Below are positions 37,900 through 47,367 of a stretch of 50,605 bases of DNA, piece after piece. Numbering within the stretch: the first letter of the stretch is position 1; the number at the start of each line of letters is the position of its first letter. Source of the stretch: Verrucomicrobiota bacterium (lineage in GTDB: Bacteria > Verrucomicrobiota > Verrucomicrobiia > Verrucomicrobiales > Akkermansiaceae); the NCBI GenBank assembly GCA_016871685.1, contig VHCM01000004.1, forward strand, positions 1 through 50,605, given 5' to 3'. The notes beneath the pieces are model-generated. The model was not told the origin of the DNA, did no database searches, and worked only from the letters and a program-made list of their open reading frames with translations. The position numbers were made by a program, and so were the translations under genes.

Positions 37900-39267
37900 A
37901 TGACCGGCCGCGACATCAGGGAGATCCTCGACCGCTCCGGCGTCACGCCGAGCCGCAAGCTGGGCCAGAATTTTCTCGCCGATCCGAATCTCGCGCGTTG
38001 GATCGTCAGTCAGCTCGATGCGTCAGCGGACGATGCCGTGGTCGAAGTCGGACCAGGCACCGGATCACTCACCAGCCATCTCGTCGGCATGGTGCGACGG
38101 CTGATCCTGGTCGAATTTGACGAACGTCTCGCTGCGGCGCTGGCCGACCGCTTTCGCGACAGGAGCGATGTCGAGGTCCACCACGCCGATGCCGCGCGCA
38201 TCGACAAGCGTCCATGGTTCGCGCATCGGCCGCTCAAGTTTCTCGGCAATCTCCCCTACTCGTCGGGCGGCGCGATCCTCAAGAACCTACTGGACGCGCC
38301 GCATCCCTTCGAGCGCGCTGTCGTGATGTTGCAAAAGGAGGTGGTCGACCGCCTGGCGGCCAAACCCGGATCCAAGGACTACGGCATGCTTTCACTGCGG
38401 ACGCAGGTCAACTGGCGGGTTGATCCGCTGCGCACCGTGCCGCCCGAGGCGTTTCACCCGCGGCCGGCGATCGATTCGACGGTGGCGGTGCTCACTCCTC
38501 GCACCGGACTGCCGCCCTTCGACCGACGGCTCTTCGACGAACTCGTGCGCCGCGGATTCGCACAACGCAGGAAACAGCTCGCGAAGAACCTGCCGCACGG
38601 CACCGCATGGCCGGAGATCGCCGCGTCGCTGGGCGTGCCGGTCACCGCGCGCGCGGAGGAGTTGTCGCTCGACCAGTGGATCGCGCTGACGCGCGACTGT
38701 GATCGGCATCCCTTGAAGGACGTCCCCCAGAATGACGCGGAGCTTTTTGATGTCGTCGATGCCGACGACCGCGTGATCGATCGCAGGCCACGGGGCGAGG
38801 TGCACGCGCAAGGTCTGCTGCACCGCGCGGTGCACGTCTTTGTCTTCAACCGGCATGGCGAGCTGTTGTTGCAGAAGCGCTCGGCTTACAAAGACGCCCA
38901 TCCCGGTGTTTGGGATTCGAGCGTCGCGGGGCACCTCGACGCCGGTGAGGATTACGATCACGCGGCCGTCCGCGAGCTCGATGAGGAAATGGGAATCCGC
39001 GGCGATGCCGCACCCGAGGAAATCAGACGGATCGCGCCATCCCAAGCCACCGGCTGGGAACACGTCCGGCTGTACCGCGCGTTCCATCACGGTCGCGTGG
39101 AATTTCCCGCGGCCGAGATCGAGTCGGTGATGTGGATGCCGCCCGAATCCATCGACGCATGGACCGCCTCCCGACCCGGGGATTTCGCGAGCGGCTTCAT
39201 CGAATGCTGGCACATGTGGAGGAAATGCGGCATCGGAACGGAGTCCGGCCATTCTCCCATCCCATGA
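37900..39267 (+). CDS. rsmA: RsmA (KsgA) 16S rRNA dimethyltransferase fused to a Nudix hydrolase domain
   Basis: A 455-residue two-domain protein. Residues 1 to about 268 are KsgA/RsmA, which dimethylates A1518 and A1519 of 16S rRNA: SRKLGQNFLADPNL, motif I EVGPGTGSLTSHL and catalytic motif NLPYSSGGAIL. Residues about 280-440 are a Nudix domain, like isopentenyl-diphosphate isomerase/YfcD: RAVHVFVFNRHGELLLQKRS and a complete Nudix box starting at Gly344 (GHLDAGEDYDHAAVRELDEE). There is no internal stop or start that would separate them. Starts 12 bases after secA and overlaps the next gene by 4 bases. The Nudix substrate is unknown. Confidence 0.9.
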   Translation: MTGRDIREILDRSGVTPSRKLGQNFLADPNLARWIVSQLDASADDAVVEVGPGTGSLTSHLVGMVRRLILVEFDERLAAALADRFRDRSDVEVHHADAARIDKRPWFAHRPLKFLGNLPYSSGGAILKNLLDAPHPFERAVVMLQKEVVDRLAAKPGSKDYGMLSLRTQVNWRVDPLRTVPPEAFHPRPAIDSTVAVLTPRTGLPPFDRRLFDELVRRGFAQRRKQLAKNLPHGTAWPEIAASLGVPVTARAEELSLDQWIALTRDCDRHPLKDVPQNDAELFDVVDADDRVIDRRPRGEVHAQGLLHRAVHVFVFNRHGELLLQKRSAYKDAHPGVWDSSVAGHLDAGEDYDHAAVRELDEEMGIRGDAAPEEIRRIAPSQATGWEHVRLYRAFHHGRVEFPAAEIESVMWMPPESIDAWTASRPGDFASGFIECWHMWRKCGIGTESGHSPIP

Positions 39268-40060: not shown

Positions 40061-40819
40061 TCAGCCCCAGACCACACCCACCGGACAATGATCCGAGCCG
40101 TGGACGTGCGGCAGGATGTCCGCGGACCGGATCCGGTCGACATGAGCGGAAGAGATGCCGACATAGTCGATCCTCCAACCGACATTGCGGCCGCGCGCAC
40201 CCCCGCGGTAGGACCACCACGAATACGCACCGGCGATGTCCGGATGAAAATGCCGGAACGTGTCGGTGAATCCGGCGTCGAGCAGCTTGCCGAAGCTCTC
40301 ACGCTCCTCATCGGAAAACCCCGGACTGCGGCGGTTCTCCTTCGGACGCGCGAGGTCGATCTCCCGGTGGGCCACGTTGAGATCGCCGCAAAACACCAGC
40401 GGCTTGCGCCGCGCACAGGCTGTGACGTGCGCGCGGAACACCTCGTCCCAGCGAAGGCGGTAATCCAGCCGCCGTAACTCGTCCTGCGCGTTGGGCGTGT
40501 ACACGTTGACCAGGATGAACTCGGAAAACTCCAGCGTGAGCACACGACCCTCGCGGTCGTGTTCATCCATGCCGAAACCCATGCTCACCTCGAGGGGAGC
40601 CTCGCGACTGAACACCGCGACACCGGAATAGCCGGGTTTTTCCGCCGAATTCCAAAACGCATGATACCCGTCGAGCGCGCCGGGAAGCGGCACCTGCTCC
40701 GGCCGCGCCTTCGTCTCCTGCAAGCACAGGATGTCGGGCGATTCCGCCGCGACGAAATCCGCGAAACCCTTGCCCAATACCGCCCGCAGGCCGTTCACAT
40801 TCCATGAAATCAAGCGCAT
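40061..40819 (-). CDS. xth: Exodeoxyribonuclease III
   Basis: An AP endonuclease and 3'-5' exonuclease for base-excision repair. The 252-residue protein begins MRLISWNVNGLRAV with the metal-binding Asn, and has the LCLQETK motif (catalytic Glu), GDLNVAHREIDLARP, and C-terminal GSDHCPV with the catalytic His. The ATG at 40819 is chosen; the frame upstream opens only at a TTG two codons earlier. It converges on the glutaminyl cyclase gene and is divergent from the transposase element, whose left end begins 44 bases upstream of it. Confidence 0.94.
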   Translation of the reverse strand: MRLISWNVNGLRAVLGKGFADFVAAESPDILCLQETKARPEQVPLPGALDGYHAFWNSAEKPGYSGVAVFSREAPLEVSMGFGMDEHDREGRVLTLEFSEFILVNVYTPNAQDELRRLDYRLRWDEVFRAHVTACARRKPLVFCGDLNVAHREIDLARPKENRRSPGFSDEERESFGKLLDAGFTDTFRHFHPDIAGAYSWWSYRGGARGRNVGWRIDYVGISSAHVDRIRSADILPHVHGSDHCPVGVVWG

Positions 40820-40862
40820 GCGCAAACCATCCGCGTCCCACGATCCGCTGGCAAGCCCACTA

Positions 40863-42018
40863 AAATGGGGTCAGGCTGCAAATCTTGACAAATTCCACCG
40901 CCCTCTGCATCTTCAGCCCATGGCAAGAAGCATTCGCATCGAATTCCCAGGCGCTTATTACCACGTCATGGCCCGGGGCAACCGGCGTCATGCGATTTTC
41001 CACGACGACGACGACCGCCGGTTCTTCCTCGCCACGCTCTCGGAAGCTTGTGCGATGACCGGATGGCGCGTGCATGCCTGGGTCCTGATGAAAAACCACT
41101 ATCATCTGTTCATTGAGACGCCCGAGGCCAACTTGGTCACTGGCATGAGCTGGCTGCAGAACACGGTGACCCGGCGTCACAATGTCCGGCACGCGGCCTG
41201 GGGCCGCCTGTTCGGCGACCGCTACAAGGCGGTGCCGGTGGATGGTGCGGACCCTTGGCACTACCGGACACTCGCCGACTACATCCATCTCAATCCGGTC
41301 CGGGCCGGCCTCATCAAACCGAAAGCTCGTGAGAGCATCCTCGACTATCCATGGAGCAGCGTTGCCGGCGGATGGGCGTTGCCTCCGAACAAACGACCGA
41401 AGTGGATGGTGGCACAAGAAGGACTGCGGCGCTTCGATCTGCCCGATTCGGTGGCCGGGCGGCGGCGCTTGGTCGAGCAACTCGACCGCCGCGCGATCGA
41501 GGAGGAGATGAAGAACTGCGGAGTGCCGGTCGTCCCCGCGGAGGTCGATGCACGCAGCAGCCATTTGCGTCGGGGATGGTACTGGGGCGGCCAGACATTC
41601 GCCGCCAAGCTTCAAAAGCTCACGGATCAGATCGCCAAGGGCCACCCGCACCTATCGAGATCCTACCGCAACACACCGCAACTCAGGGCACACAGTGAGG
41701 GACAAGCGGAAGAATGGCTGAAAGAAGGCATTCAGGCCGCAGGCCTTGCGGCCCGTGAGCTGCCGCAATTGAAGGGATCGGACCCCCGCAAACTCGCACT
41801 GGCCGAACTGCTGTGGAAACGGACCACCGTTTCACAGGAATGGATCGCACGGAAGCTGGCCATGCGCAGCGCCGCCAACGTCAGCCAGCAATTGCGGCGG
41901 TTGGATCGAAAGCACGTGCTCTCCAAGGTGCCGCCCGCGATGCGGCGCTTTCTCGGCAATGCCTGGCAGGCGGAGGGTTGAAGGACGTTTTGTCAAGATT
42001 TGCAGCCTGACCCCATTT
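40863..42018. mobile_element. RAYT-type transposase element with 30-bp inverted ends
   Basis: A 1156-base element bounded by perfect 30-bp inverted repeats: left end 40863-40892 (AAATGGGGTCAGGCTGCAAA...), right end 41989-42018 as its exact reverse complement. Between them is one Y1-type transposase gene. No target duplication is evident. The right end overlaps the 3' end of ribD and supplies its stop. A solitary copy of the end sequence is at 47324-47353. The GGGGTCAG motif in such ends is often seen next to Y1-type genes in my memory of these families; this was not checked. Confidence 0.85.
40920..41981 (+). CDS. Y1 (HUH) transposase, REP-associated tyrosine transposase type
   Basis: A 353-residue single-strand transposase of the IS200/Y1 fold (PF01797). 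It has the RAYT-like opening GAYYHVMARGNRR, the HUH metal site His60-Tyr61-His62 (MKNHYHLFIETP) and the catalytic Tyr121 in DYIHLNPVRAGL. The C-terminal half (about 275-345) carries a helix-turn-helix-like segment (ARKLAMRSAANVSQQLRRL). The ATG at 40920 follows directly after the left inverted end. Such enzymes move or spread the short palindromic repeats around them, so its ends and the solo copy are likely its substrates. Confidence 0.9.
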   Translation: MARSIRIEFPGAYYHVMARGNRRHAIFHDDDDRRFFLATLSEACAMTGWRVHAWVLMKNHYHLFIETPEANLVTGMSWLQNTVTRRHNVRHAAWGRLFGDRYKAVPVDGADPWHYRTLADYIHLNPVRAGLIKPKARESILDYPWSSVAGGWALPPNKRPKWMVAQEGLRRFDLPDSVAGRRRLVEQLDRRAIEEEMKNCGVPVVPAEVDARSSHLRRGWYWGGQTFAAKLQKLTDQIAKGHPHLSRSYRNTPQLRAHSEGQAEEWLKEGIQAAGLAARELPQLKGSDPRKLALAELLWKRTTVSQEWIARKLAMRSAANVSQQLRRLDRKHVLSKVPPAMRRFLGNAWQAEG

Positions 42019-43048
42019 GCGTGCGGAGGATGCGGGCGCGCAGCTTGAGGTCGTCGCCGAGCGCCTCGAAGCGGATGTCGGTGAGGCGGTGCGGCGCGGG
42101 CAGGCCGTTTCCCGCAAGCGCCGGCACCGGGCCACCACAGAGCATCGGCGCGTAGTAGACGACGATTTCGTCGATCAGCCCGGCCTCCACCAGGGCCGAT
42201 GAAAACACGCCGCCGGCCTCGACCAAGGCGCAACGCACCCCTTGGTCGGCGGCGAGATTCCGCAAGGACGCCTCAAGATCACCACACGGGCGGATCAAGG
42301 TGCGCTCACACCAACGATCGCTGAACAACGGAGCCTCGCGTGGCAATGACTCCGGCTTGTCCGTGAACACGACTCGCCACGGCTGGTCCCTGCCCCCCGC
42401 GAAATCGGCATCGCGAATCGTCAGCGCCGGATGATCGCGGCGCACCGTTTCACCGCTGGTGAGAACCGCATCCACCTCGGCGCGCAAGCGCTGCACGTCG
42501 GCGCGCGCGGCCTCGCCGGTGAGCCATCGGGATTCGCCCGGCGGCCGCGTGATCCTTCCGTCCAGACTCATCGCGCACTTCCAAATCACCCAAGGCAATC
42601 CACAAGCGATCCACTTCGCAAATGGACGAATCAGCGAGAACGCCTCATCCGCAAGCACTCCCGCGCGCACCTGGATGCCGTGCGCCTCGAGCATCGCGTC
42701 CGCCCGCCCGGAGTGCGCGGGTGCCGGATCCGTGCAGGCGTACACGACCCGCGCCACACCCGCGTCGATGAGGCCCTGGGTACACGGCGGCGTGCGGCCG
42801 AAGGTCGAACACGGTTCGAGCGTGACATAGATGGTGGACCCGCGCGCGGCTTCAGGGCCGTGGCTTCCGAGCACGTTCACAAGCGCCTCGCGTTCGGCGT
42901 GCGGACGACCCGCCGCGCGGTGCCAGCCGGATCCGAGCAGGATGCCGTCCTTCACGACTACCGCGCCGACTGCAGGATTCGGCGCGGTTTTTCCAACTCC
43001 TTTGCACCCCTCCGCAATGGCAAGGCGCATCCATGCCTCGTCATTCAT
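41993..43048 (-). CDS. ribD: Bifunctional RibD (pyrimidine deaminase/reductase), 3' end overwritten by the transposase element
   Basis: Performs the second and third steps of riboflavin synthesis. The 351-residue protein has the zinc deaminase motif HAERE with EPCSTFGRTPPC, and the reductase domain (SLDGRITRPPGESRWLTG, VEAGGVFSSALVEAGLIDEI). The last eight residues, QMGSGCKS, and the stop are encoded by the right inverted end of the transposase element, so the original 3' end has been replaced. Essential motifs are upstream and intact, so function is probably kept. Its start overlaps the mechanosensitive channel stop by 8 bases. Confidence 0.92.
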   Translation of the reverse strand: MNDEAWMRLAIAEGCKGVGKTAPNPAVGAVVVKDGILLGSGWHRAAGRPHAEREALVNVLGSHGPEAARGSTIYVTLEPCSTFGRTPPCTQGLIDAGVARVVYACTDPAPAHSGRADAMLEAHGIQVRAGVLADEAFSLIRPFAKWIACGLPWVIWKCAMSLDGRITRPPGESRWLTGEAARADVQRLRAEVDAVLTSGETVRRDHPALTIRDADFAGGRDQPWRVVFTDKPESLPREAPLFSDRWCERTLIRPCGDLEASLRNLAADQGVRCALVEAGGVFSSALVEAGLIDEIVVYYAPMLCGGPVPALAGNGLPAPHRLTDIRFEALGDDLKLRARILRTQMGSGCKS

Positions 43049-45371
43049 CGGCGGCAGGACGCATGGGTTCAACGCCGATCGGCCGCTCGCTGGCAAGCTG
43101 CATGTCACGCTGCGGGAGGGGAATGCGGATGCCGGACTCGCCCAGCCGCTTGCCGATCATCAACCGCAGGTCGCTCGCGACCACGACCGGATTCGCGCCG
43201 CTGCCGAGTTCAAGCCAGTAGTAGAGCGAAAACACCAGCGCGTCTCTGCCGAAATCATCAAACACCGCGAACGGCGCTGGATCCTTGCACACAAGCCCGT
43301 GACGTCCCGCCGCCTCAGCGAGGATGTCCATGATCAACGCCGGAGGCGTACCGTAATCAACCCCCACACGAAGGCTCTTGCGGATCGTGGACGAGGTGAG
43401 CGTCAGATTCGTCACGCGGTTTTCGAGGAAGATCGAATTCGGCACGATCGACTCCTGATCGTCGGCCGCACGGATCACCGACGAGCGCGTGTTGACCTCG
43501 GTGACGGTGCCGATCACGCCACCGACCTCGACCACATCCCCGACACGAATTTTTCGCTCCACCAGCAGGATGATGCCGCTGATGAAGTTCTTGATGAGCG
43601 TCTGCGTGCCGAAACCGACACCGATGGCCAGCGCGCCGCCCAGGAACGCGAAGATCGTGAGCGGGATGTTGAGATAGGAAAGCGTACCGATCAGCAACAT
43701 CAGGGAGACGAGAAGCATCAGCCACTTGCGCAGCGTGCGGGCCTGTGCCTCGAACAAATAACCGCGGCGGACCAGCGTGCGTTGCACGCGACGCAGGACA
43801 CGGGACGCGAGGAGCCAGCCGACCAGGAAAAAAAGCAAACCTCCGAGCAGCATGCCGAGGGTGACGCTCACCTTGCCGGTGATCGTCTGCCCGTCCACTT
43901 CCACCTGATCCTCGAACGAAAAGATCGTGAGCGACCAGACATTGCCCAGCCATGAGGGAATCGAGGACACGAGAGTGCCGATCCGCTGGCTCAAGTCGGT
44001 GGATCCGGGTGGTGCCGGAGCGTGGTGTTCAATCCATCGTCCCACCTGCTCTTCAAGATTCCTGACCGCCTGGATCGCCCTTCGCTGCATGGCGAGCTTT
44101 TCACTGAGCGCGGCACGTTGGTCGTCGAACTCGTCCGCGCGTGAATCACCGGCGGCCATCGCCGCGGCGCGCGATTCGAGTTTCGCAAGATCCGCAGCCG
44201 AAGCCGCGTTGTCGCTTTCGATCACTTCCCGCCAGACCCGCAGGCGTCCGGCGGTTTTCACGAGCGATTGCGCCAAGGCCCTCGCTTCCGCCGGATCCGC
44301 GGCATTCATCAACACGCGGCGGTCAGCGTAGACCGCACGATACTGGCTTTCCAATTCGACGAGGCTTTCCAGCAGTTGCCGCATCGATTGAAGCGCGTCG
44401 AGACGAATCCCGGCAGTGGCGAGTTTCAGCCGCGCGGGATCGTCATCGGCGGCGACCTGGCCAGTCAGGTCCATTCTCTCCTGCGCCGCCTGACGCGCGC
44501 GCAAGGCGGACTGGATCCGTTTTTCGACTGCCTGGATTTCCTTCGCGACAGCCTTGGCGCGTTCCTGCGAAAGATGATGAATTCGTTGGAGTTCCTCCTC
44601 GGTAAATCCGACGTCGTCGCGCATCGTGCGGATCTTGCGATCGAGAAGGTCCAGATCGGACCTTGCCGCGGCCACCGACTGGCGTAGGTTGGCCATCCCC
44701 GCTTCAACCAGTGCGGCACGCACGGCCTGCAGTCGCGATTTCGCCTTGGCGGTGTCGAGTGCCCATCGTGCGGCCTCCACCGCATCTCCTTGCGCGCCTT
44801 GCAGCGCGGCATTCGCCCGCCCCACGACGTCCGCGTCGGATTTAGCGTCTGTCAGCACACCGGCAAGCACGCGTTCGAAGTTCGCCATCGATGACTCGTG
44901 TGTCGCGAGTTTCGACCGCACGGCTTGCCGCTCGCCGGTGAGTTCATCCAGCCAGAGCACCGGATAGGGCGGCGGCTCCTTGAATCCTGCCCACGCCGAT
45001 GCCGCCGCACGCGACTGCTCGGCCGCCTTGACGGCATCGCCTCGCGCGGACAAGGCCGCGAGCGCGTTGGATGCGTGAATGACGATCTGCCCGAGCGTGC
45101 GTTTGCGCTCGTCGAGATCTGCGGCCGTCACACCAACAGGCAGCGACGCCGGATCGACCCCGTCGAGACGCGTGAGCGCGTCGCGCGACTCACCCAGCCA
45201 TAGCTCGAGGCGCTTCGTGGCATCCTCCGGTGTTTCCGCGGTCTTGGCAGCCTCGGCCGACTGACCACCCAGCGATTTGGGCAATGATGGAAGCTGCGCA
45301 CGCAGCGTGGCCACACAACACAGCACGGCCAGGATGGTCGCGACGGAAAGCCGGGTTGACGACGGGTTCAT
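43041..45371 (-). CDS. MscS-family mechanosensitive channel (large, MscK-like)
   Basis: A 776-residue inner-membrane channel that releases solutes on hypo-osmotic shock. It has a signal peptide (residues 1-25), a long periplasmic region of Ala/Leu/Glu-rich coiled-coil helices (about 40-500), two or three membrane segments, and a C-terminal MscS domain: pore helix GGALAIGVGFGTQTLIKNF and the beta domain VGDVVEVGGVIGTVTEVN. The length and coiled-coil resemble MscK/YjeP, without the extra membrane helices of the largest forms. The ATG at 45371 precedes the signal peptide. It is upstream of ribD, overlapping by 8 bases. Confidence 0.88.
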   Translation of the reverse strand: MNPSSTRLSVATILAVLCCVATLRAQLPSLPKSLGGQSAEAAKTAETPEDATKRLELWLGESRDALTRLDGVDPASLPVGVTAADLDERKRTLGQIVIHASNALAALSARGDAVKAAEQSRAAASAWAGFKEPPPYPVLWLDELTGERQAVRSKLATHESSMANFERVLAGVLTDAKSDADVVGRANAALQGAQGDAVEAARWALDTAKAKSRLQAVRAALVEAGMANLRQSVAAARSDLDLLDRKIRTMRDDVGFTEEELQRIHHLSQERAKAVAKEIQAVEKRIQSALRARQAAQERMDLTGQVAADDDPARLKLATAGIRLDALQSMRQLLESLVELESQYRAVYADRRVLMNAADPAEARALAQSLVKTAGRLRVWREVIESDNAASAADLAKLESRAAAMAAGDSRADEFDDQRAALSEKLAMQRRAIQAVRNLEEQVGRWIEHHAPAPPGSTDLSQRIGTLVSSIPSWLGNVWSLTIFSFEDQVEVDGQTITGKVSVTLGMLLGGLLFFLVGWLLASRVLRRVQRTLVRRGYLFEAQARTLRKWLMLLVSLMLLIGTLSYLNIPLTIFAFLGGALAIGVGFGTQTLIKNFISGIILLVERKIRVGDVVEVGGVIGTVTEVNTRSSVIRAADDQESIVPNSIFLENRVTNLTLTSSTIRKSLRVGVDYGTPPALIMDILAEAAGRHGLVCKDPAPFAVFDDFGRDALVFSLYYWLELGSGANPVVVASDLRLMIGKRLGESGIRIPLPQRDMQLASERPIGVEPMRPAADE

Positions 45372-47323: not shown

Positions 47324-47367
47324 TTTGTCAAGATTTGCAGCCTGACCCCATTTTCTGACCCCATTTT
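47324..47367. repeat. Solitary transposase-end copy with 13-bp tandem duplication
   Basis: Bases 47324-47353 match the right end of the element at 40863-42018 exactly (30 of 30). The end segment CTGACCCCATTTT is then repeated directly, at 47342-47354 and 47355-47367. No transposase gene is attached. It lies in the 283-base gap between fur and the oxidoreductase gene. It is probably a REP-like unit or the scar of an excised element. Confidence 0.75.

Follow-up and report, generated by a model that had tools for sequence, protein, structure and literature searches.

This locus raises the question of whether a tyrosine transposase gene enclosed by perfect inverted repeats belongs to a transposon that moves as a unit or is a resident gene of its host. 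The literature generally treats RAYT-type proteins as domesticated, with a parent element that does not move as a unit.

A transposase gene between identical ends

Within the window (the whole stretch of 50,605 nucleotides that was analyzed, from a Verrucomicrobiota bacterium of the family Akkermansiaceae), the element is 1,156 bp long and is bounded by an exact 30-bp inverted repeat (AAATGGGGTCAGGCTGCAAATCTTGACAAA on the + strand at the left end; Table 1). The chance expectation for this repeat is 0.00 in the window (100 shuffles). These exact ends had been reported in a sequence-only reading of the locus and are confirmed, as is its claim that a single Y1/HUH transposase gene fills the element: there is one open reading frame between the terminal inverted repeats (TIRs), its 353-aa product matches the Y1_Tnp profile (E = 5e-12), and the HUH motif and the tyrosine are conserved. 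The NCBIfam model for REP-associated tyrosine transposases (REP_Tyr_transpos, NF047646) matches with E = 4e-16 and 59.3 bits, which is below its curated cut-off of 80. The alignment of 23 homologues shows no variation at H60, Y121, or H123 and almost none at H62, and the C-terminal third of the protein is conserved. The C-terminus may be helix-turn-helix-like (HTH-like): residues 309-341 have a weak match to LexA_DNA_bind (E = 0.003, below the cut-off), and across the homologues the only matches to HTH models were weak and in single members (LexA, MarR, HTH_20). The AlphaFold single-sequence model of the transposase was unusable (pLDDT 38).

Table 1. Coordinates of the element, its parts, and neighboring features in the window.
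Feature	Position	Strand	Evidence or remark
Left TIR	40863..40892	+	Head AAATGGGGTCAG outward, tail TTGACAAA inward; exact 30-bp inverted repeat
Right TIR	41989..42018	-	Sequence supplies the end of the ribD reading frame, stop codon included (...MGSGCKS*)
TIRYT gene, 353-aa Y1/HUH tyrosine transposase	40920..41981	+	Y1_Tnp match; NF047646 below cut-off; 23-member alignment
HUH motif H60-Y61-H62	41097..41105	+	Alignment: H60 invariant, H62 nearly so
Putative catalytic tyrosine Y121 in DYIHLNP	41280..41282	+	Invariant in 23 homologues; role by analogy with TnpA-REP/IS200
C-terminal HTH-like segment, about residues 285-345	41772..41954	+	Weak LexA_DNA_bind match; alignment conservation
Solo TIR copy without transposase	47324..47353	-	30/30 identical
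13-bp tandem duplication of TIR head (AAAATGGGGTCAG twice)	47342..47367	-	
ribD	41993..43108	-	Frame enters the right TIR, gaining the tail MGSGCKS
xthA-like exonuclease III gene, left flank	40061..40825	-	Not adjoining ribD in relatives

The RibD proteins of relatives end near LRLRGIIR, so the element entered at or beside the ribD stop codon. The element is beside ribD in 0 of the 29 ribD loci of relatives, and these gave no usable empty site, as the relatives are too distant and their ribD does not adjoin xthA. Farther to the left in the window (37900-39267, + strand), a single frame appears, by eye and from its translation only, to fuse an RsmA/KsgA-like rRNA dimethyltransferase with a Nudix-like domain.

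RAYT-like genes with GGGGWSAS inverted repeats have been named TIRYTs, and the elements TIRtrons (Di Nocera 2013, PMC3733652). Our element is of this published but little-studied type: both of its ends are headed by GGGGTCAG, which fits GGGGWSAS, and it has a RAYT-like tyrosine transposase between such TIRs rather than palindromic REPs. Also, the TIRs of some TIRtrons are scattered through the genome singly, as dimers, or in groups, and there is a dispersed family here too. The sequence-only reading was out of date in holding that most RAYTs lack neat terminal inverted repeats, as TIRYTs have been known since 2013. The examples from that year are mainly from other phyla, and the available text of the paper (PMC3733652) does not report unit mobility, deleted derivatives, or head-anchored truncated copies. 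TIRtrons in general, and this element with them, are probably the same as TnpAY1 subclass 2.1 (Quentin 2018, PMC6006769), which we assign by description. This subclass has an HTH-type C-terminus (Bac_DnaA_C, HTH_23, or HTH_28), is flanked by GGGG[AT][CG]A[CG], and has no REP-like hairpin (PMC6006769). The long protein, the flanking inverted repeats, and the absence of a hairpin are alike in this element, whose C-terminal extension may be of the HTH type too, with weak matches to HTH models other than these three. An HTH C-terminus, the feature that had been singled out as noteworthy, is a known mark of the subclass.

Other known systems are less similar. REPtrons (TnpA-REP or RAYT genes with REPs or REPINs) share the Y1/HUH core with YIHLNP, the presence of one gene alongside numerous scattered cognate repeats, and the co-variation of repeat and protein. 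However, the ends of our element are headed by GGGGTCAG instead of GTAG and are not palindromic hairpins, the match to REP_Tyr_transpos is below the cut-off, and relatives of the element transpose as a unit. The absence of a GTAG tag and of a hairpin rules out a REPtron. IS200/IS605 elements share the HUH/Y1 transposase and may share the lack of a target duplication (none was visible at inspected flanks), but they have asymmetric subterminal hairpins and no TIR, whereas our element has exact symmetric TIRs and no subterminal hairpins (which rules out this identity), and its kind has one-ended truncated copies. The rolling-circle HUH elements (IS91/ISCR and Helitron) resemble it in making one-ended copies from a fixed terminus, but here the Y1 protein is much smaller, the ends are symmetric, and there is no Rep-type or helicase protein. 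Text matches to GGGGTCAG in the literature were unrelated primers only.

Solo copies of the ends

A 23-bp core of the end (GGGGTCAGGCTGCAAATCTTGAC) is present in 22 copies in the genome, with zero differences among them, and 20 of these copies are away from the transposase gene. A piecewise search of the genome found no further full-length element. The suggestion that the ends or the element might recur in this genome therefore holds for the ends, at 20 more places, and not for the element, which is single-copy. In most relatives, copies of the core are rare or absent.

Most of the 22 copies are found at the 3' end of a gene or no more than about 100 bp from it, with the head toward the stop codon. 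Several provide the final codons, (M)GSGCKS and stop, of a gene (ribD and the genes at C2:33089 and C36:19637), and elsewhere the stop codon finishes at the TIR head (for example, on contigs C31 and C59). By such overlaps with TIRs, unrelated proteins in this genome share the C-terminal tail GSGCKS (C2:33089, C36:19637, C15:24058, and 41993-42014 of the window).

Four pairs of cores are inverted, with their heads outward, and span 115-183 bp overall. We considered whether these pairs were decayed deleted derivatives of the element that share a linker, and rejected this: their linkers are unrelated, being no more alike than the outer flanks are, and are not derived from the element. The genome also contains three other Y1 genes, which are more distant from this transposase. 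Two of these three genes (loci L041 and L043, on contigs C75 and C32) have GGGACAG-headed inverted repeats (ATAAAGGGACAGTCCTTTTATC; CACATAGGGACAGACAA), which are a second end type. Separately, tandem arrays of the 7-mer GGGTCAG, with no obvious link to a transposase, are found in genomes G002 (C1 and C163), G012 (C417), G014 (C52), and G026 (C122).

Mobile and fixed members among relatives

Homologues of the transposase (E < 1e-20) are present in 46 of 99 relatives, and of 289 genomes sampled across the phylum, 99 match the profile with E < 1e-30. (A scan of genome contigs with the single protein found one weak locus; a plasmid search found only distant Y1 proteins, and a phage search found none.) Among 23 homologues, a head of the GGGTCAG/GGGTCGG type was found on the left in 21 and on the right in 20. 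Across 21 elements, the tails of the TIRs co-vary with the transposase (Mantel r = 0.71, p = 0.0002), and the GGGGTCAG head is kept.

For the ten nearest homologues, the alignment to our element runs from TIR to TIR and does not extend beyond; their flanks are unrelated. Some relatives carry more than one copy. The two copies are 96.6% identical over 1,137 bp in G080, where both are full, and 99.6% identical over 1,074 bp in G270; in G284, a complete genome in one contig, they are more than 1 Mb apart and 99.6% identical over 1,101 bp. One of the G284 copies interrupts an IS4-like gene, and comparison with an intact copy of that gene fixes the left junction exactly. In both genomes that allowed a left junction to be compared with an uninterrupted copy (G284 and G270), the sequence on the right did not continue that copy, and the relatives yielded no empty site that retains both flanks. 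At the flanks that were inspected, no target duplication was seen.

In genome G092, there are at least four mini-elements (about 184 bp; 83-95% identical), with a linker that shares about 80% identity with the 3' portion of that genome's transposase gene. Judged by this similarity, these are internally deleted derivatives. Short repeats that share TIRs and take their internal sequence from an autonomous copy, as MITEs do, were found only in this relative. One of the mini-elements (L143, 2934-3120) splits a greA-like gene beside IS remnants. No empty sites were found for the mini-elements of G092; at the greA-like site, the downstream homology is lost.

These comparisons of sequence show that the unit from TIR to TIR changes place over evolutionary time in the relatives. 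The proposal that the element "may be mobile" is thus supported through its relatives, where units have moved and have left internally deleted derivatives. It would have been undermined by ends that occur nowhere else and by relatives with the same element at the same site, neither of which was seen; the empty sites that might also have revealed mobility did not turn up. Because this genome has the full element only once, we infer, rather than observe, the movement of the window's own copy.

The fate of the family was different in genus g21, which is of the same family of bacteria. Each of its 14 sampled species has exactly one homologue, and in 11 of the 14 both flanks are homologous, so this is one resident locus. 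The left GGGGTCAG repeat is present in most of these loci, and we found no GGGGTCAG-headed right TIR adjoining the gene. (Downstream at these loci, L245-L258, there are short head-out GGGGTCAG pairs, with heads 56 bp apart, that are REPIN-like.) As the g21 gene is fixed in at least 11 species, a gene of this kind can be retained without moving, and the g21 locus is in the state that the sequence-only reading called domesticated. That reading had suggested that our element could be an intermediate between IS200/IS605 and domesticated RAYTs. Our comparisons do not establish this placement: the element is of a known kind, the TIRtrons, which includes both mobile and fixed members.

Head-anchored duplications and a possible way of copying

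Exact tandem duplications cover 71 of 280 distinct TIR heads, as compared to 22 of 4000 windows drawn at random from these loci. (Loci that had been picked for their tandem heads were excluded from this count.) The start lies 3-9 nt ahead of the GGGG in 44 of the 50 distinct duplications, regardless of their length (9-59 bp). Large head-anchored pieces also occur, of 313 bp in G284, of 493 bp in G080, and, in two cases, of 836 bp in G237, as does a solo piece of 289 bp at a separate site in G284; all of these start 3 to 12 nt before the GGGG. A partial copy is placed outside the full copy, head first. Overall, truncated and tandem copies, from 9 to 836 bp, almost always begin at the outer head of a TIR.

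Could these pieces arise without the transposase? Replication slippage or unequal recombination can lengthen an array once two heads exist, some genomes do have 7-bp GGGTCAG arrays, and the tandem pieces could partly have arisen in this way. But anchoring at one edge is seen across periods from 9 to 836 bp and also for the piece at a separate site, and none of 16 sites of a control motif had an exact tandem duplication. We consider it unlikely to be the main source of the pieces. We give far less credence to the idea that the dispersed TIRs are host regulatory signals, acting at the ends or in the processing of transcripts, that the transposase gene merely uses. The invariant core, the positions of most copies near gene 3' ends with the head toward the stop, and the stop codons that several of them provide would all fit such a role. 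However, a single TIR folds no better than its shuffles (z about 0; 0.13) and forms no stable hairpin, a scan for promoters and terminators was empty, with no terminator-like site, and most relatives have few copies or none. Tolerated insertions would likewise give intergenic placement at 3' ends.

Another alternative is that the gene in the window is itself a domesticated resident, with a host function, that acts on the dispersed TIRs while the unit no longer moves, as in the classical RAYTs with their REPs. The single full copy with its intact reading frame is compatible with this, the g21 locus, where no GGGGTCAG-headed right TIR was found, is a precedent, and REPtrons are held not to transpose as a unit (PMC6006769). 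Against it, our element has two intact and identical TIRs, it is absent from beside ribD in the relatives, and its close homologues are in unrelated contexts, with copies within a genome and with internally deleted derivatives. On balance, domestication of the window's copy seems improbable, and slightly more so than slippage does for the tandem pieces.

Our preferred reading, to which we assign a probability of about 0.7, is that the element is a TIRtron in the sense of an autonomous transposon: a TIRYT gene between two head-out TIRs that moves as a unit and is copied from one end. The transposase would recognize its own TIR, as the co-variation of the tails with the protein suggests, and would nick the strand immediately 5' of the head, 3-9 nt ahead of the GGGG. 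Y121 would keep hold of the 5' end after the nick. The free 3' end of the flank could then be extended across the element and joined again to the head that the protein holds, which would yield head-anchored tandem pieces. Or, the displaced strand, head first, might be joined elsewhere, which would give a copy that is complete, truncated, or shortened by an internal deletion, with no target duplication. More broadly, we suggest, tentatively and with somewhat less than even confidence, that TIRtrons are active transposons that use one-ended, head-first HUH replication at hairpin-less TIRs to make strands of variable length, which are rejoined or are inserted elsewhere.

Our literature search was limited to open-licence papers, within which the unit mobility of TIRtrons, their deleted derivatives, and the head-anchored footprint appear to be undescribed, so the novelty of the mobility and of the footprint is provisional. 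The footprint may hint at the way in which these elements are copied. If the one-ended, head-first mode is true, it is unlike both the peel-and-paste of IS200/IS605 and the mobilization of REPs, and it would explain the origin of the solo TIR repeats. Within the same phylum and with the same type of end, some TIRtrons are plainly mobile, with near-identical copies, deleted derivatives, and truncated pieces, and others are fixed. Together, the mobile and the fixed members make it possible to test directly how a transposon becomes a resident gene and where small dispersed repeats come from.
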